Assembly (NCBI RefSeq): GCF_007741515.1
Contig: NZ_CP036263.1
Coordinates: forward strand, 4,451,178 to 4,515,177
Length of the DNA stretch: 64,000 nucleotides
From: Adhaeretor mobilis
GTDB lineage: Bacteria; Planctomycetota; Planctomycetia; Pirellulales; Lacipirellulaceae
Direction of reading: 5' to 3'
The position numbers and the translations under genes are program-made. Positions 30,262-39,537 of the stretch are shown here, one piece after another. Every line of letters begins with the position of its first letter. Position 1 is the first letter of the stretch. The notes under the pieces are model-generated. The model saw nothing but the letters and a program-made list of their open reading frames with translations. It was not told where the DNA came from and did not search any database.

Positions 30262-32550
30262 TTAGGTGATAGTAGACGCCGCCGCGTCAGCAACTTGATC
30301 CTGCTTGCCCCTCCAGCATCCTGACTCTCCTCGTGTGAACTTCTCGGTAAGATGGCTTTCAATCTGCCGACGCTTCCACCCCCTGGAGATTCTCTTGTCG
30401 ATTGCTTCTAGCGAAATAGCTTCAACAACCGGATCCGACGCCTCGACACTCATAGCACCAACTGCGACAGCCTTTTCGAGGGCCTCACCAGGGTTTGCAT
30501 CCCGGGATATCGCGGCAAGAAATCCTGCGATCGTTCGATCGCCGGCCCCATTGGTGGAGGCAACTTCCACCTCGAAGCACGGAGCATACAGCTCGCGGGC
30601 CACCCACTCTGCTAGGTCTCGTTTCCCATCATAGAATCCGTGAGTAATCCTCTCTGCGTCCGAGGAGCTTTTCAAATAGAGGCCGTGCGAACCAAGTTTC
30701 AATACGACAATACCTGCTCCCAACGAAATCAAGCGATCCGCAGTTTGACTCAACAGGTCATGATCGAAGGTATCAACTTGCCCCGCTTCTGCCAGCTCGT
30801 GATGACGTGTGGGATCAAGCATGAAGAGGACCTCTTCGAGGCTCGGCATAAATAGAGCTACATGGGGCAACACGCGTTCTAGCCATGCGCTCCAGTTAAT
30901 TTCTCCAGCCGGAGCAGTCGGGTCGGGCATCGCCATGTCGAGCGATGTCATGGGGCCCTGCTCTTTGACACTTCGAAAGAGCCTTGCCATTGCTGTTCCG
31001 CCATCCTCCCAGAATCGCTGCATGAGCGGTGGATAGCCAAAGTGAAATAGCTTTGCGCCTTTGAGCAGCTCAAGCTGAATGTCTTCTGCCGAGAAAGTAT
31101 CATTCGCCGCTGGAAAATGCAGGAAGGAACGATCAACACCCGATGGCATAATCACGAGCGAATAACTGGCATGCTCACCTGGAGCAACAATCATCCCGTC
31201 TGCAAGGTCACCGCTGGTGTTCTGCAGAATGTTGAGTATCTCATTCCCAAAAGAGTCATCGCCGATTTTTCCCATCAGGGATGTTCGCACGCCAAGCTGG
31301 TGTAGTGTCAGACCTACATTGGCAACACAACCTCCGGTAACATGAGCTGCCGGGCCAATTACTTTTAACTTGCCCGGTTCAATAAGGGCGTTCGCTGAAA
31401 CGGTCTCTTGAGGGAACTCTGGAATAATGTCCAAGCAGATGTGGCCGGCGACAACGACTTCAGGCCTCGGCCTCTCGGGCCCTTTTCCCTGACTCTCTCG
31501 CCTCGAAACGGCTGAGGTCGTCTTGCTGGAATAGTCGAAGTAGCGATTGGTCGCATGTAGGTCTTCTTCTAGGGTGCGAAACGGCCTTATGCCAAGACCT
31601 GCTAGGTCGTTGTGGTAAGAGCGAACTGCTTCTGCCGCATCGGTAAGCTGGCCATCAGCCAAGTAGCGGAGATGCTTGATAAAGGTGAGTTGATGCTCGG
31701 AATTGTTGATCATTCGACCATAAAGGGCCACACGAGCACCATATTTTTTGGCTTCCCACAACTGCTGGAAGGCGTCGTAGGTTGTGCCGGACGAACCTCC
31801 GAGAATCCCCACCACGAGCGAAGAATCGTAACTGACCAGCTCCTCTAGCGATGCGGGGCCGTGATAAACCATCTTCAGAAACAGTGGACGACCTCGCTCC
31901 GTGACGCCAGCCAGTGCTCTCACGATATGGTCGTTTACAAACGAACCTACGTCTGCGATAGGATTGACGGGGCAGTTCGGATCAAAGATTTCCAGAAAGT
32001 GGCGAAATCCTTTGCGTTCGGCTTCCAGACAGAATTCGCGATAAGCTGAAAGAGCTTGTGCATCGAGCACGGTGTCGTTATTGAAGGTGATCGAATAGAG
32101 ACCCAGGTCTGCTCCAAGCTGACGTTCTTCCCGCTGGCAGTCCGCCTTACCGCACATGGCATGGTCGATCGAGGCAGAACGAAATGGACGTGACGGTTGC
32201 TCCGAGTAGATGCCTCCCCGTGCCAGCCAGATATCGGTCGTGTCATTAGCACGAATTGCAGGGGTGACACGACTTTGGTCAAACAGACGCTCGTTGAGGG
32301 TGAGCACTTCGTTGGTACTCGCACTCATCAGCATGATGTCGATGAGACCTTGCTGAGTGTTTTGGCGAATGATGTCGCGATACTCTTGCAACGATCGGAA
32401 TTGTTTCGATTCTAAGTTCTTGCCGGGAGCAGCAATCCCGAAGGCCATGTCCGCATCCTTAGCGTCGGCAAGAAGGAACTCATCGCAGGAAGGATCGTCG
32501 AGAATGCGAGTTAGCTTCTCATCCAACGTCTTATTGGCATGGTCTGGCAT
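30262..32550 (-). CDS. Fusion protein: aldolase-type TIM barrel plus PfkB-family sugar kinase
   Basis: A 762-residue two-domain cytoplasmic enzyme. Residues about 1-345 look like a class I aldolase barrel, with LGLYSITFNNDTVLDAQALS, a candidate Schiff-base lysine at 226 in PLFLKMVYHG, and a phosphate-binding GGSSGTTYDAF at 251-261. A charged linker follows, about 345-364. The rest is a PfkB (ribokinase-type) kinase, with VVVAGHICLDIIP, GGCVANVGLTLHQLGVRTSL and the catalytic NGAGD at about 667-671. The domain order is the reverse of known IolC-type fusions, in which the kinase comes first. It ends an amino-sugar operon, so phosphorylation and cleavage of a keto-sugar phosphate is a fair guess. 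The substrate is not proven. Confidence 0.82.
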   Translation of the reverse strand: MPDHANKTLDEKLTRILDDPSCDEFLLADAKDADMAFGIAAPGKNLESKQFRSLQEYRDIIRQNTQQGLIDIMLMSASTNEVLTLNERLFDQSRVTPAIRANDTTDIWLARGGIYSEQPSRPFRSASIDHAMCGKADCQREERQLGADLGLYSITFNNDTVLDAQALSAYREFCLEAERKGFRHFLEIFDPNCPVNPIADVGSFVNDHIVRALAGVTERGRPLFLKMVYHGPASLEELVSYDSSLVVGILGGSSGTTYDAFQQLWEAKKYGARVALYGRMINNSEHQLTFIKHLRYLADGQLTDAAEAVRSYHNDLAGLGIRPFRTLEEDLHATNRYFDYSSKTTSAVSRRESQGKGPERPRPEVVVAGHICLDIIPEFPQETVSANALIEPGKLKVIGPAAHVTGGCVANVGLTLHQLGVRTSLMGKIGDDSFGNEILNILQNTSGDLADGMIVAPGEHASYSLVIMPSGVDRSFLHFPAANDTFSAEDIQLELLKGAKLFHFGYPPLMQRFWEDGGTAMARLFRSVKEQGPMTSLDMAMPDPTAPAGEINWSAWLERVLPHVALFMPSLEEVLFMLDPTRHHELAEAGQVDTFDHDLLSQTADRLISLGAGIVVLKLGSHGLYLKSSSDAERITHGFYDGKRDLAEWVARELYAPCFEVEVASTNGAGDRTIAGFLAAISRDANPGEALEKAVAVGAMSVEASDPVVEAISLEAIDKRISRGWKRRQIESHLTEKFTRGESGCWRGKQDQVADAAASTIT

Positions 32551-32627
32551 ATCGTTGACTGTACAGTTCTTTCAGAAAGCTAAGCTAACAGGAGTGCTAT
32601 TACCGTGCTGATTACGTCACCATTGCT

Positions 32628-33554
32628 TCAATGCATCTCTGTTTCGACGCTGCCGATTCCACCACGATAGAAGTTGAAACGGACTTGGGGATGATCGGCC
32701 AGCAGCGACATCGGTACAGAACTATCGGGGATCTGTTTCGCAATCATCAAGGCACTCAATCGCATGCCAAACGGGTTGTCGTGGTGACCCGGATGCCAAA
32801 TCGACACACAATCGGCCTTCCAAGTCTCTACGGGGCCGACCGTTGCGGCGCGAATGGGCACTTGGGGAACGTAGCCCCCTCCTGAGGTACGCGCATTCTG
32901 GATGACCGTCATGGGATGCAAGTCGGTGATGCGGGTTCCTAACTGGCGATACTCTTCAGGTGTTGGTGGTGCATCCTGATAATCGCCTTCTCGCTTAGGC
33001 GGATCGTTAAATGCCCAATGCTTGACTTCGCCTTGTCCACCTTGCATCAGTGCGCATCGCACTTCATCGTAGCTCTTGGAGTAGGCCTCCAAGTCCGTCG
33101 GGAAGTGTATGTTTTCTGTGGGCATCAAGAGTTCAGGTCGAATGCGGTTAAAGCAAAGTTCCATGTCGGCTTTGGCAAACGAGAGAGGATGATCGGTGGC
33201 GACCGGCTTACCATCTTCGATCCATTCATCCATCCCCCAAAAGTGAGCGTCATGGAGTTTGAGGTCGAGCGCGTTAACCATCCGTGCCACGAGAGGCAAT
33301 TGTTCCGTCGGACCAATCGGACCGCAAATCCCTACAGGATTGTCGGGGGTCGCTTGCCGCCAAACCTGAATGTATTCGAGTGCTTCGGCGCAGAAGAATT
33401 CCTCCAGGGTGTCGTAGAGGGTCACGACGAATCCGTCTCGCGATAGCCCCGTCAGATCGTCAGCCGTTAGTCGAGCCGCATCTTTGAGAATCTCCGAGTC
33501 GAGTGTCGTATAGTCCCACCAGCCAGGTGCCACTTTGCTTATTGGACGTCCCAT
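32628..33554 (-). CDS. Divergent glucosamine-6-phosphate isomerase/6-phosphogluconolactonase-family protein
   Basis: A 308-residue protein of the NagB/SugarP-isomerase fold. NagB-like signatures are present in altered form: [20 protein letters not shown] (compare the FHLDEY motif in the NagB at 35382) and [12 protein letters not shown] (compare HLAFNDPP). It is longer than NagB and clearly a separate subgroup. Its start overlaps the end of the PIG-L deacetylase gene by 16 bases, so it is co-translated with it, and it lies 77 bases before the fusion gene. It probably isomerises or deaminates a modified hexosamine phosphate; the exact reaction is unknown. Confidence 0.82.
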
Positions 33555-34336
33555 CGTTCTAACTTGCCTCCTAATAGTTCGTGCAGAATGTCGGTTTGAG
33601 GAAACGGATGTCCCCGGTGTTGGATGAAGGCTTCGGCATACTCGGTGCCAAGTTCGGTGCCTCGCTGCTTACTGTGCCGTTTCATCGACTCAATGTATTC
33701 ATCCATGCCGTGGTGGGAGCGTAGCCACTCACGCTGCGAAGCGTGACAGGCGAGCATCTCGCTCTTCCGGTCAATCTGTTCTGAAATATCGATTCGAACA
33801 GACGGCTTCACCAGCTCTCCAGAGTAGGGGTCGCTCCCCTCGATCGGATCGCAATAGTAGAGCCAAGGGATAGTCGAGCCTGCCAGAAGAGGCAATGGTG
33901 ACGCATTGGGTATCGGGAAACCAAAAGCGGCACTGCGAGCCAGTTGATGCACTTGCTCGTGGTCGAGCATGTAGTCGTGACGCGGATGCGTGAAGACCAG
34001 GGAGGGGGCTACTCGACGGAACAAGTCAATTGCCTTTCGATTCGTCTCTTTCTCAAACACGACATTGACATCGCGTTCCTCCAGGCAGTGATAAGTGGCG
34101 CCGAGTACCCGAGCGGCAGCGACCCCTTCGGCGCGACGTATCTTTGCTATTTCTTCTGGAGGCAAGGAGGCTGACCCGCAATCACCGGGAGTCGCGGTCG
34201 CAATGTGCGTTTCCCAGCCCAGCTTGGCAAGACGTAGCAGGGTGCCAGCACAGAGAATCTCCGCGTCGTCGGGATGTGCTAGGAAGGCTAATGCGACACG
34301 TCGGGTTGTCAGGGTGGAACTGGCCATAGAATCCAT
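33539..34336 (-). CDS. PIG-L/LmbE family deacetylase
   Basis: A zinc-dependent deacetylase of the LmbE-like family, 265 residues, that removes N-acetyl groups from glucosamine derivatives in known members. The metal motif [14 protein letters not shown] is at about residues 18-31, and the second histidine motif region [15 protein letters not shown] at about 117-131. There is no signal peptide. A second in-frame ATG three codons in is an alternative start. It follows nagA and overlaps the NagB-like gene, within an amino-sugar operon that therefore has two different deacetylase types. Confidence 0.9.
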
Positions 34337-34440
34337 GACTCAAATCTTTTGGTAGGTAGGTGGTATCACTCTGAGCTAATTCACTGGAAGCCACCTTTGT
34401 CGTGGCCTGCGCACTTGAGAAGCAAGTGCACGAGTCTCGC

Positions 34441-35367
34441 CTAGGTTAGTGAAAGAGCCTTTTGGGGATTGAGAGAGGTAAGCATGCATATCGAATCTTC
34501 ATCGAGATGTAGGTGATTGCGAAGGTTATCAGCACTCGTAGTCATGGTTGCAACCGAACCTGCCAAATGAGATTTGTCACCAGCAATCGATGTCACTCCA
34601 TACTCGTCAACATCGACCTGTTGCCCTCCGATGGTGTACTGCCCTGGCCCCAGGCCGGCGGCGGAGATCGCATCTGTCACAACAATCGATCGATCAACGC
34701 CTGCGACTTGGAGGTAGTTGCCAAGTGCATAGAACGGAATGTGTACTCCATCGGCGATAAAACAGCACCAGAGGTGATCTGCAAAACTGAGTACTCGCTG
34801 AATGACATTGTCGTGGCGGTCAATCTCCTTGGGACATCCATTGCCTACATGAGTGAACATGGACAGTCCTGAATCGACTGCTGCTCGCAAGACATCAAGC
34901 GGTGCTTCGCAATGTCCGGCTGAGACGATTACTCCCTCCTGAGAAAGTCGTTGAGTTACCTTTAGTCCGCCGTCACGCTCAGGTGCCAGTGTCACTATGC
35001 GGGTTAGTCCTTCTGCCGCCTCCAGCAGTTGGAGCATCACCTCGGTATCCGCAGGCCGAACAGAATTTGCCGGATGGGCACCAACATACCCTGTTCGTTC
35101 GTTGATGAAAGGTCCCTCAATGTGAATGCCTTGTATGACCTTACGTACGATCTCATCTTCGTCGCGAGCCCGAACAATTCGCCGGAGTCGCGAAACCATG
35201 GCATCGATATCATCCGTAATGACCGTAGCCAGGATCCCTTCCACGCCATCGTTCGCTAAGCGTGTACACGCGCGGTGATAGTCTCTACCACTAGCATCGT
35301 CGGAATTGAAATCAACGCCGTCGTAGCCGTTGACTTGCAGGTCAAAGTATTGGGGGCCGTTAATCAT
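34441..35367 (-). CDS. nagA: N-acetylglucosamine-6-phosphate deacetylase, N-terminally short
   Basis: An amidohydrolase-fold deacetylase, 308 residues against about 380 in well-studied NagA proteins. The N-terminal small beta-sandwich (about 50 residues) is absent and the protein begins at the barrel, INGPQYFDLQVNGYDGVDFN. Catalytic features are present: IQGIHIEGPFINE, SAGHCEAPLD, FTHVGNGCP, and VVTDAISAAGLGPG with the catalytic Asp. The frame could not be extended to supply the missing part. It follows nagB by 14 bases. Its product GlcN-6-P is the substrate of the neighbouring NagB. Confidence 0.85.
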   Translation of the reverse strand: MINGPQYFDLQVNGYDGVDFNSDDASGRDYHRACTRLANDGVEGILATVITDDIDAMVSRLRRIVRARDEDEIVRKVIQGIHIEGPFINERTGYVGAHPANSVRPADTEVMLQLLEAAEGLTRIVTLAPERDGGLKVTQRLSQEGVIVSAGHCEAPLDVLRAAVDSGLSMFTHVGNGCPKEIDRHDNVIQRVLSFADHLWCCFIADGVHIPFYALGNYLQVAGVDRSIVVTDAISAAGLGPGQYTIGGQQVDVDEYGVTSIAGDKSHLAGSVATMTTSADNLRNHLHLDEDSICMLTSLNPQKALSLT

Positions 35368-35381
35368 GGATTCCTTGCTTC

Positions 35382-36137
35382 CTAGCGGGTGGCAGACATG
35401 GATTCTGACAGTTTGCTTGCGGCGGGTGGATCCAGGAAGATGGTCGTTGCCAGGTGCGATTGCAAGATAGATGCAGGAACATCCTGGGTAATCGGCCCTT
35501 CAATGACCTTCGCCGTTGCATCTGCCTTCCGTTCGTCGGGAACGCTACAGACAATGGCGTTTGACTTGAGGATTTGCCGAACAGACATGCTAATTGCCTG
35601 AGTTGGGATCTCTTCAAACGTCGAAAACCAGCCTTCGCCAAGTTGTTGGCGACGACATGCCTCGTCCAGCGAAACCACCAAGTAAGGTACTTCCGTATCA
35701 AAATCGGCAGGAGGATCGTTGAAGGCAAGATGGCCGTTTTCGCCTATGCCTATCAGGGCAACATCAATCGGATGAGCTGTTATCAGATCGGATAGGCGAG
35801 AACATTCATCGGCAACTTGCTTAGCCATTCCATCGATAAAATGGAAAGCTTTCAACGGCACCTTGGAAACAAAGCGTTCGCTAAGGTACTTGCAAAACGA
35901 GGCCGGGTGATCTGTGGAAATCCCAATATATTCATCCAGGTGAAATCCCGTAACTTGCTCCCAAGGAATATCCTTCTGCGCTATCAATGCAGCCAACGTT
36001 TCAAATTGGGAGGCTCCCGTGGCAACGACAATATTGGCAGAGCCTCGTTCGGCAACGGCCTGCTTAATCAACTCACCAGCTTTGGAAGCAGCCAGTTCTC
36101 CCATTTCTCTTGTGTCTTTTGAAATAACAACGTTCAT
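35382..36137 (-). CDS. nagB: Glucosamine-6-phosphate deaminase
   Basis: This enzyme converts glucosamine-6-phosphate to fructose-6-phosphate and ammonia. It has 251 residues, close to family length. Key motifs are [15 protein letters not shown] (phosphate loop region), [11 protein letters not shown] with the catalytic Asp, and [17 protein letters not shown] with the ring-opening His. As in the Bacillus enzyme, the residue before GH is Asn rather than Asp. It is the first gene of the minus-strand amino-sugar operon (nagB, nagA, PIG-L deacetylase, NagB-like, aldolase-kinase fusion), with its promoter presumably in 36138-36577. Confidence 0.92.
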
Positions 36138-36577
36138 CTTTCTCGTCCTTTCGCGGTTAAGTTTAGTAGGTCAAACCTTGACTTGTTGTGCAGGTTGTTG
36201 CGTGTGAATTGGTTTTATACTCGCAACACGGTTCCCAGCTGCTCACATATTGCATTGCTTGATTTTCGAATTCTGATTGCCATTTCATTTGTGCAAGCAC
36301 CAGAAACTCCACTTCTCACTTCGTATGGATCTCTCCTGCAAGCAGTTACGGTATCACATTGCCAGAATTCTCCATTTCAGTCTGTTGCAGAGTTGAGAGC
36401 GGTTATCGGAGCAACCTAACATTGAAGCAACTTAATTTGACTCCCGCTCAAAACTGCGCTGAACAATTTATTGAGGTGGGCCTGCAATGTCCGGGATCCG
36501 TTCTTCAACAGGTGTTTTCAGCTGTCGATTAGTGACGATAACTTCAGTCTCGGTACCTTGTGTTCCTTGCGAAGTAG
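36138..36577. other. Intergenic region upstream of the nagB operon
   Basis: No gene, RNA or repeat is evident. It must carry the promoter of the operon starting at 36137 and the 3' end of the carbon-nitrogen hydrolase transcript. An AT-rich TTTTATA block near 36214 could be part of a minus-strand promoter, but no matching -35 box is clear. Confidence 0.4.
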
Positions 36578-38163: not shown

Positions 38164-39537
38164 CTATATTTCCCACGGCTCACGCTTGGGTCTCTTCAGC
38201 ATCCCAGCGGCTTCGTCGTCGCCGATGATCTGCTCCGATTCCGGATCCCATTTGATCTTTCGTTTCAGTTTCATCGCGATATTTCCCAAGTGACAAATTG
38301 TTGCAGTACGGTGGCCGACTTCGACTGGTTCGATAGGGTCTTGCCTTGATTTCACTGCGTCTAAGAAGTTCCGCACATGTTGTGGCGATACACGGTCATA
38401 TCTAGTAACCGGCTTGCCGGGCACGGCTACAGGTAAGTGAAACTCGTCGGGACCGATTACCGAAGTGAGCAGAGACTTCGGCGAGGCGTGTACACCGCTT
38501 GAATCGACCTGCACCCAGCCCTCACTGCCTTCGAATCTCGCACCGAATCCAGGAGGTCGGGTTTCGCAGATTAGCTCAACACCATCAGCGTAACGTGCGT
38601 GAAATGCAACTCTCGTTGCAGTAGTAAACAGCGAACCTGACTCTGGCCACTCTGAACCGGCATCGGTGAACTCTAATGGTCCGGTGAGCTCACTACCGTG
38701 TCCGAGCTGAGCCAGATCAAGCGAATGGGCACCAAAGTTTGTCGTCTGACCACCAGAATACTCTTCGATGAAGCGGAACTTGTAGAGGCAGCGGTCCTCA
38801 TGATAGGGTGCCTTTGGGGCGGGGCCGAGCCACATGGCGTAGTCAAAGCCTTTTGGCACAGGCATCGGCATCCAACTAGTACCGGGACCGGTGAAATTGT
38901 TCTCGGCGATGTATGCAGTTATTCGTTCCAAATCGCCGATGCGTCCGTTGCGCACCAACTCGCAACCGCGGCGCATGTTATCGTTTGAGCGATGCTGACT
39001 ACCCGTCTGCAAAATACGCTTATGCTCTCTCACGGCCTTGACCATCGCCTTTCCATCTTCGACTGTGAGTGACAGCGGCTTCTCGCAGTAGATGTCTTTG
39101 CCCGCCCTCGCCGCAGCAATGGTCATCGTGGCGTGCCAATGGTCCGGCGTGATGATGACCACTGCGTCGATGTCGTCTCGCCCCAAGACTTCGCGAAAGT
39201 CAGTATATGCAGCGCAGCCTTTGTAAGAACCTGAATGAGACTTGTCGGCGTAGTACGCTTCCACACTTTGCTTGCCTGGCTCTCTACCGAGAAAGTCTTC
39301 CGGTACGCGATAACCGATGCTGCCAGTGTTTACATCGCATACGGCCAAGACTTGCACGTCATCGTTTTCCAAAAACGCGGGCAGATCGACTTTGCTCTGG
39401 TTGCCCAGGCCAATGAAGCCAACGTTGATGCGATTGCTGGGAGCATTTGCCCCAAATACACTGCGCGGAACAATAGTCGGAGCGGCAACGGCGCACGCAG
39501 CGGATTTGATGAATGTACGGCGGGTTGATTGGGACAT
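38164..39537 (-). CDS. Tat-exported Gfo/Idh/MocA-family oxidoreductase
   Basis: An NAD(P)-dependent sugar-type oxidoreductase, 457 residues, with a Tat signal (STRRTFIKSAACAVAAPTIV). The Rossmann fold opens NVGFIGLGNQSKVDLPAF, and the catalytic Lys is in the family motif YCEKPLSLTVEDG at about residues 150-162. The C-terminal half is the usual substrate-binding domain, including FRFIEEYSGGQTTNFGAHSL. Planctomycetes hold many exported members with tightly bound cofactor and unknown substrates. A perfect inverted repeat sits 47 bases upstream of its start. Its neighbours suggest a role in glycan or polyol turnover. Confidence 0.9.
   Translation of the reverse strand: MSQSTRRTFIKSAACAVAAPTIVPRSVFGANAPSNRINVGFIGLGNQSKVDLPAFLENDDVQVLAVCDVNTGSIGYRVPEDFLGREPGKQSVEAYYADKSHSGSYKGCAAYTDFREVLGRDDIDAVVIITPDHWHATMTIAAARAGKDIYCEKPLSLTVEDGKAMVKAVREHKRILQTGSQHRSNDNMRRGCELVRNGRIGDLERITAYIAENNFTGPGTSWMPMPVPKGFDYAMWLGPAPKAPYHEDRCLYKFRFIEEYSGGQTTNFGAHSLDLAQLGHGSELTGPLEFTDAGSEWPESGSLFTTATRVAFHARYADGVELICETRPPGFGARFEGSEGWVQVDSSGVHASPKSLLTSVIGPDEFHLPVAVPGKPVTRYDRVSPQHVRNFLDAVKSRQDPIEPVEVGHRTATICHLGNIAMKLKRKIKWDPESEQIIGDDEAAGMLKRPKREPWEI

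Follow-up and report, generated by a model that had tools for sequence, protein, structure and literature searches.

In the 64,000-nucleotide stretch of Adhaeretor mobilis DNA analysed here (the window; NCBI RefSeq assembly GCF_007741515.1, contig NZ_CP036263.1, positions 4,451,178 to 4,515,177 of the forward strand), a single minus-strand gene at positions 30262–32550 joins a class I aldolase-like barrel to a PfkB carbohydrate kinase in one polypeptide of 762 amino acids. We consider it reasonably probable that this protein is a ketose kinase and ketose-phosphate aldolase acting on a ketose derived from an amino sugar, and that it is a fusion of single origin from which an ancestral C-terminal tag has been lost. 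Functionally, two other products of its operon, a PIG-L deacetylase and an enzyme of the NagB superfamily, would convert an N-acetylamino sugar to a ketose, D-fructose or a near relative of it. The C-terminal kinase would phosphorylate this ketose, with C1 as the likeliest position, and the N-terminal aldolase would form a Schiff base through Lys226 and split the product into dihydroxyacetone phosphate (DHAP) and an aldehyde (glyceraldehyde in the case of fructose-1-phosphate). Evolutionarily, the aldolase probably descends from a protein with a microcompartment tag at its C-terminus; this tag would have been lost, with the kinase taking its place.

Architecture of the fused protein

The minus strand of 30262–32550 is a single open reading frame (ORF) with an ATG start, the plus strand is rich in stop codons, and the gene is confirmed as real: a chance reading frame is ruled out because the genome holds a second copy at 99.63% identity and the same single-ORF architecture recurs in Rhodopirellula solitaria (locus L004) and at locus L170. 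The aldolase half occupies residues 1–345 (31516–32550, minus strand) and the kinase half residues 363–735 (30346–31464, minus strand); residues 337–362 (31465–31542, minus strand) form a linker at the position where free-standing relatives have a linker and a C-terminal peptide.

The C-terminal half is a PfkB carbohydrate kinase. Pfam PF00294 matches residues 402–705 (91.4 bits against a cut-off of 25.8, E-value 8.9e-26), GGxVxN lies at residue 406, and the catalytic GAGD motif lies at residues 668–671 (30538–30549, minus strand), in agreement with the kinase and the GAGD near 668 that had been read from the sequence alone; GG and G-x-GD are invariant in 34 aligned kinase homologues. The structural model of this half (predicted local distance difference test, pLDDT, 91.5) has a ribokinase fold, aligning to YdjH (3in1) with Z 35.7 and a root-mean-square deviation (rmsd) of 2.7 over 310 residues, to ribokinases at Z about 33, and to IolC (2qcv) at Z 32.8. 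A kinase profile likewise ranked YdjH best among solved structures (1.6e-22), with 2-keto-3-deoxygluconate (KDG) kinases also among the PDB matches, and the best NCBIfam match was IolC_N, at 77.8 bits far under its cut-off of 300. Escherichia coli YdjH (3h49/3in1) is therefore the nearest solved relative by sequence and fold, at 22% identity; it is unfused, and its gene adjoins the aldolase gene ydjI.

The N-terminal half belongs to a family (hereafter the N family) that the sequence libraries do not name. Residues 1–347 gave zero Pfam matches even at E ≤ 10, so that membership by sequence in DeoC/LacD (PF01791) or DUF2090, the families against which a profile search had been proposed, was ruled out, and the libraries searched hold no NCBIfam model for the family. 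Structurally, though, class I aldolases top both the Foldseek and the VIA-align lists for the AlphaFold model of this half (pLDDT 88.2). By VIA-align, the model matches 2-amino-3,7-dideoxy-D-threo-hept-6-ulosonate (ADH) synthase (MJ0400, 2qji) at Z 23.6, LsrF (4p2v) at 22.9 and archaeal class I fructose-1,6-bisphosphate (FBP) aldolase at 22.7 (1ojx/1w8s at 22), followed by sulfohexulose-1-phosphate aldolase (20.8), YihT (20.6) and LacD (about 20); the rows listed, from Z 23.6 to 18.5, are all class I aldolases or close relatives, one of them (3fok) without a name. The closest folds superpose with rmsd 2.7–3.1 over 241–252 residues (Z 22–23.6) at an identity of only 15–18%. Designed TIM-barrels topped the phmmer list for this half and were set aside, since the match ran through a single repeated 24-residue stretch, and searches of PADLOC and PHROGs gave nothing useful.

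The candidate Schiff-base residue, Lys226 (codon 31873–31875, minus strand), lies on strand 6 of the model (residues 225–227) and is lysine in 60 of 60 aligned rows (59 distinct genes), whether or not the protein carries the C-terminal tail described below; it is also one of about 100 invariant positions across 28 aligned N homologues. Glycine-rich loops follow strands 7 and 8, as in LsrF, ADH synthase and archaeal class I FBP aldolase, and GGSSG occupies residues 251–255. Glu187, on strand 5, is invariant as well, a feature that we take to be typical of LacD-type rather than archaeal enzymes, and Asp29, Glu187 and Arg279 presumably correspond to catalytic residues of class I aldolases. At the sequence level, phmmer places Lys226 opposite the lysine in the IIKTYY motif of LsrF in a weak, insignificant alignment (E 0.6), and one microcompartment-linked N member (L122) matches the LsrF and ADH synthase models over the same region at 1.4e-5 and 6.7e-5, below threshold. 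By predicted fold and lysine, then, the N half is a class I aldolase, for which Schiff-base catalysis would be expected. The sequence-only reading had proposed just such a barrel, with Lys226 and a GGSSG phosphate loop, and had named a non-aldolase family or an unconserved lysine as what would speak against it; the fold is that of class I aldolases and the lysine is invariant.

A single origin, probably from neighbouring genes

Scanning genome contigs recovered 125 relatives, of which 80 were kept, and 30 loci with the N half. Among these 30 the fusion is rare, a single ORF occurring only in the two copies of the window genome and in R. solitaria, which compares with the window protein at 81% in the N half and 70% in the kinase half; the third fused species (L170) is of the same genus as the genome carrying the R. 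solitaria sequence. Separate homologues of the two halves, which the sequence-only reading had suggested looking for, exist in other genomes both apart and, in a Rosetta-stone pattern, as neighbours: N and the window's kinase family are adjacent genes at seven of the 30 loci (L005, L006, L016, L018, L021, L022 and L028) and also at L128 and L180, and the order is kinase then N at three (L174, L203 and L204). A single change on the N tree accounts for all three fused rows. In a smaller N tree the fused pair is sister to L016, L018, L021 and L022 (Shimodaira–Hasegawa-like approximate likelihood ratio 83), and in a smaller kinase tree it groups with these four and L005 (support 96). The fusion has a single origin on these trees, and probably came about by the joining of an aldolase gene and a kinase gene that lay side by side. 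Its distribution is patchy across families, since the window genome and the Rhodopirellula-type genomes belong to different ones (f1 and f2) and in G516, a genome from the same genus as the window, the N gene is unfused and stands beside a different PfkB; horizontal transfer of the fusion is possible.

A tailed aldolase family linked to microcompartments

Most free-standing N proteins run to about 395 amino acids: after the barrel comes a variable linker rich in Pro, Ala and Ser, and then a peptide conserved as DFxxM(S/T)xxEK. The family takes two forms, one tailed, with the linker and conserved C-terminal peptide, and one tailless, ending near residue 340 or continuing into a kinase. We examined 126 loci and counted 123 (L009 was masked, and L026 and L137 were cut), in a non-random sample in which L170–L209 come mainly from tailless genomes or genomes lacking the bacterial microcompartment (BMC) shell gene BMC-P and L210–L249 serve as the tailed comparison. 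Of the 123 members, 75 have a C-terminal extension of at least 30 residues, which in most of them closes with the conserved peptide, and 48 are tailless. Many tailed genes sit among BMC-P genes (PF03319), an aldehyde dehydrogenase, a class II aldolase and a DeoR regulator, and BMC-type genes lie within 4 kb of 28/75 tailed versus 0/48 tailless loci. Two further proteins of these loci are conserved: cluster 31 (L013:5765-6622), of a planctomycete BMC locus and with no Pfam match, and cluster 48 (L122, L125 and L126), whose gene is flanked by those of the class II and N aldolases.

The link to microcompartments also holds across genomes. In an even sample of the phylum, N occurs in 31 of 392 genomes, and BMC-P in 29 of those 31 as against 123 of 392 overall (Fisher p 5e-14). 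Within the order the link is weaker, because BMC-P is present in 329 of 396 genomes and N in 233; 31 of the 233 N-bearing genomes lack BMC-P (a cross-count by eye from two tables). Where BMC-P is present, N is tailed in 45 genomes, not tailed in 4 and cut by a contig end in 2 (L026 and L114); where it is absent, N is tailed in 1 (L031, a 1.6 Mb metagenome-assembled genome), not tailed in 6 and masked in 1 (L009). By genome this association is strong (Fisher p 4e-5), but on the tree it reduces to 4 independent pairs and is not significant, so we rejected the claim of a proven correlation between tail and BMC-P across lineages. The window genome has no BMC-P gene, its fused protein has no linker-plus-terminal-peptide tag, and the kinase occupies the position where that tag would be.

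The neighbours of tailed N genes agree with the composition described for the Planctomycetes and Verrucomicrobia microcompartment (PVM), an organelle whose signature enzyme is a class II aldolase (Axen et al. 2014, PMC4207490; Sutter et al. 2021, PMC8217296); the available portions of these descriptions do not mention a second, class I-type aldolase. A literature search returned no paper on this fusion or on a class I-type PVM aldolase, its coverage stopping short of Erbilgin et al. (2014) and supplements, which may list the gene as hypothetical.

Kinase and isomerase neighbours of tailless members

Tailless members keep different company. A kinase (KIN or KHK profile) is fused or lies within 4 kb at 23/48 tailless versus 4/75 tailed loci, the rows being partly chosen and related, and with flanks of at least 1.5 kb only (18 loci dropped) the counts are 21/45 versus 4/60. 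Outside the window's kinase family, the neighbour is the prokaryotic ketohexokinase Khk (PF25270) at three loci (L131, L172 and L206) and another PfkB at nine (L134, L171, L184, L185, L192, L202, L207, L208 and L209); Pfam, applied to 11 of these 12 kinases (all but that of L208), confirms each of them. To explain which loci have a kinase neighbour, the tree requires 15 changes, and so the N–kinase pairing has been gained and lost many times.

Isomerases recur in the same neighbourhoods, of D-lyxose-isomerase type at six loci (L006, L028, L128, L131, L172 and L174) and XylA-like at ten (L005, L016, L018, L186–L190, L194 and L202). At L131, isomerase, Khk and N form a run of overlapping genes, and at L128 the order is N, kinase, isomerase and a GH38 alpha-mannosidase. 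The window's kinase family also adjoins a different aldolase, of the PF01791 LsrF type, in Paenibacillus. Because the pairing of kinase and class I aldolase recurs with an isomerase feeding it, a route is suggested in which an aldose or an amino sugar becomes a ketose, the ketose is phosphorylated, and the phosphate is split into DHAP and an aldehyde. The Paenibacillus and Cohnella locus (L034–L072) is conserved: besides the kinase and the LsrF-type aldolase it encodes a D-lyxose-isomerase-like cupin, a Gfo/Idh dehydrogenase, a DUF4432 protein and a GlcD-like FAD oxidase (the last named by eye), and is probably an uncharacterised sugar catabolic pathway.

The amino-sugar operon and its duplication

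The fusion gene does end a NagA/NagB operon, as had been read from the sequence, being the last of a tight run of five minus-strand genes. In order, these are a NagB-like glucosamine-6-phosphate deaminase (35382–36137; PF01182 at 9.9e-20, TIGR00502 at 140 bits, under cut-off), a NagA-like protein (34441–35367; TIGR00221 at 185 bits, under the cut-off of 225.65), a PIG-L family deacetylase (cluster 17, 33539–34336; PF02585 at 4.3e-27), a NagB-superfamily protein (cluster 15, 32628–33554) and the fusion. The NagA-like protein is only 308 amino acids long, covers positions 56–347 of 380 in TIGR00221 and has no Pfam match. Cluster 15 in the window has neither a Pfam nor an NCBIfam match, and its family profile aligns by hhalign to the window NagB (probability 88.5, E 2.7e-6). 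A Gfo/Idh/MocA dehydrogenase gene lies upstream (38164–39537).

PIG-L, cluster 15 or both also accompany the window's kinase family at L016, L021, L022, L032, L037, L174, L180, L203 and L204. Cluster 15 itself is found at these nine loci and at L065 and L181, with 71–84% identity among seven aligned members; it travels with PIG-L deacetylases and the PfkB kinase, and is possibly a deaminase of unphosphorylated amino sugars. One genome (G587) has two N-aldolase loci, L180 and L181. PIG-L and NagB-like genes precede N at both, and a kinase lies within 4 kb at one only.

The whole five-gene operon is duplicated. The repeated unit (30287–36283) recurs at G000:C1:2939032-2945028 with 22 mismatches and no gap over 5,997 bp, and it stops a few codons short of completing the fusion gene, which gives the two fusion proteins different C-termini. 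A third copy, of NagB and the NagA-like gene only (G000:C1:2846014-2847921, 99.79% over 1,900 bp), lies beside an ISAs1-type transposase-like gene and near an N-acylglucosamine 2-epimerase-like gene, both recognised by eye.

Weighing the proposed function

The notion that phosphorylation and cleavage are combined in one polypeptide, put forward in the sequence-only reading, is supported by the evidence above as the likely way in which the protein works, with an amino-sugar-derived ketose as the proposed substrate. The single likeliest substrate of the aldolase is fructose-1-phosphate, yet we would not expect it to prove right as often as wrong. Several observations weigh against our proposal. 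To our knowledge no activity is recorded for any N-family member, and nothing computed separates phosphorylation at C1 from phosphorylation at C6. Aligned with the profile of the Paenibacillus PF01791 aldolase, the N-family profile gave no significant match (probability 0.35, E 0.17), and its search of PDB sequences gave no natural aldolase. As many as 25 of the 48 tailless loci have no kinase within 4 kb, and a sign test of tail against kinase on independent pairs is not significant (4 usable pairs, median p 1). The fused R. solitaria keeps three BMC-P genes, its single N copy being the fused one, and tag loss is thus not strictly tied to organelle loss. The hydrophobic moment of the tag peptide is generally not above that of shuffles, per sequence or per column (p 0.26–0.33); we had expected an amphipathic-helix encapsulation peptide and dropped that claim, keeping a conserved C-terminal peptide after a variable linker, for which targeting would be the presumed role. 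Finally, a neighbouring Khk is no proof that N cleaves fructose-1-phosphate, because in Haloarcula hispanica Khk makes fructose-1-phosphate, which a second kinase, 1-phosphofructokinase, turns into FBP, and only then does the class I aldolase come into play (PMC11519228).

Three other readings compete with a ketose kinase and ketose-phosphate aldolase. The pair could be glycolytic, with a PfkB-type 6-phosphofructokinase acting on NagB-made fructose-6-phosphate and a class I FBP aldolase releasing DHAP and glyceraldehyde-3-phosphate. An operon with NagA-like and NagB-like enzymes of the phosphorylated route would supply that fructose-6-phosphate, and the archaeal FBP aldolases are among the nearest folds; however, the kinase family elsewhere accompanies isomerases of unphosphorylated aldoses, N stands beside Khk, a kinase of free fructose, at three loci, and the microcompartment link would better suit release of a free aldehyde than of glyceraldehyde-3-phosphate, which leads us to regard a glycolytic role as unlikely. 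A kinase of an amino sugar or a keto-deoxy sugar acid, similar to IolC or KDG kinase and paired with an aldolase for the matching phosphorylated compound rather than for neutral ketoses, is a distinctly doubtful alternative: the IolC_N match, the KDG kinases among the PDB matches and the upstream Gfo/Idh/MocA gene favour it, but the nine neighbouring proteins scanned include no dehydratase or inositol genes, and free-standing homologues adjoin aldose-ketose isomerases. That the barrel is now a regulatory or scaffolding domain, its fold kept while the kinase does the work, would suit a family with no known activity or curated model in the libraries searched, but is very improbable given the some 100 invariant positions and the retention of Lys226 in every aligned row, tailed or tailless.

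Comparison with known kinase-aldolase fusions

The best-known counterpart is the IolC-DUF2090 fusion (NF047869), likewise a PfkB kinase and a class I-type aldolase barrel in one chain, a 5-dehydro-2-deoxygluconokinase and 2-deoxy-5-keto-gluconate-6-phosphate aldolase whose aldolase part is LacD-like and for which consecutive catabolic steps have been proposed (Price et al. 2022, PMC9007349). Its kinase is N-terminal by the NF047869 coordinates, whereas that of the window protein is C-terminal; its pathway is that of inositol, whereas the window gene lies in an amino-sugar operon; and NF047869 scores the window protein at 25 bits against a cut-off of 600. The window protein is accordingly not an IolC-type fusion turned round: DUF2090 finds no match in it, and its aldolase comes from another family. 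The sequence-only claim of an order reversed with respect to known fusions holds against IolC-DUF2090 but not in general. NCBIfam already has a family named 'KHG/KDPG aldolase/sugar kinase fusion protein' (NF041633), and the stretch of it that matches a kinase, positions 513–548 of 580, is C-terminal, which by position makes the family aldolase-first. NF041633 differs in its named 2-keto-3-deoxy-6-phosphogluconate (KDPG)-type aldolase and is absent from the 17 NCBIfam matches of the window protein at E ≤ 0.001. As for unfused enzymes, LsrF, ADH synthase MJ0400 and archaeal class I FBP aldolase (DhnA-type) share fold and strand-6 lysine with the N half, and differ from it in that the N half has no PF01791 match and stands at the low identity given above.

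Significance

Kinase-aldolase fusions are known as an idea; what this one brings to light is an aldolase family without a model in the libraries searched. This family, BMC-linked when tailed and kinase-linked when tailless, is a larger point than the fusion itself, which may have begun as an enzyme of the organelle, shed its tag and become linked to its kinase, a direction of change that we infer. From a broader perspective, we tentatively posit, at a little short of even confidence, that planctomycete PVM organelles hold a second, so far unrecognised signature enzyme, namely a ketose-phosphate aldolase of class I type that bears a C-terminal encapsulation peptide of its own, and that where the organelle was abandoned or the enzyme redeployed, the tag was lost and a cytosolic kinase (Khk or various PfkBs) was wired in, in one lineage by fusion, so that channelling would replace sequestration. 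Should the N-family aldolase prove to be encapsulated, the PVM organelle would handle more substrates than the described fucose and rhamnose. The tailed and tailless forms constitute a natural experiment on organelle replacement, the one having a tag and the other a kinase, adjacent or fused.

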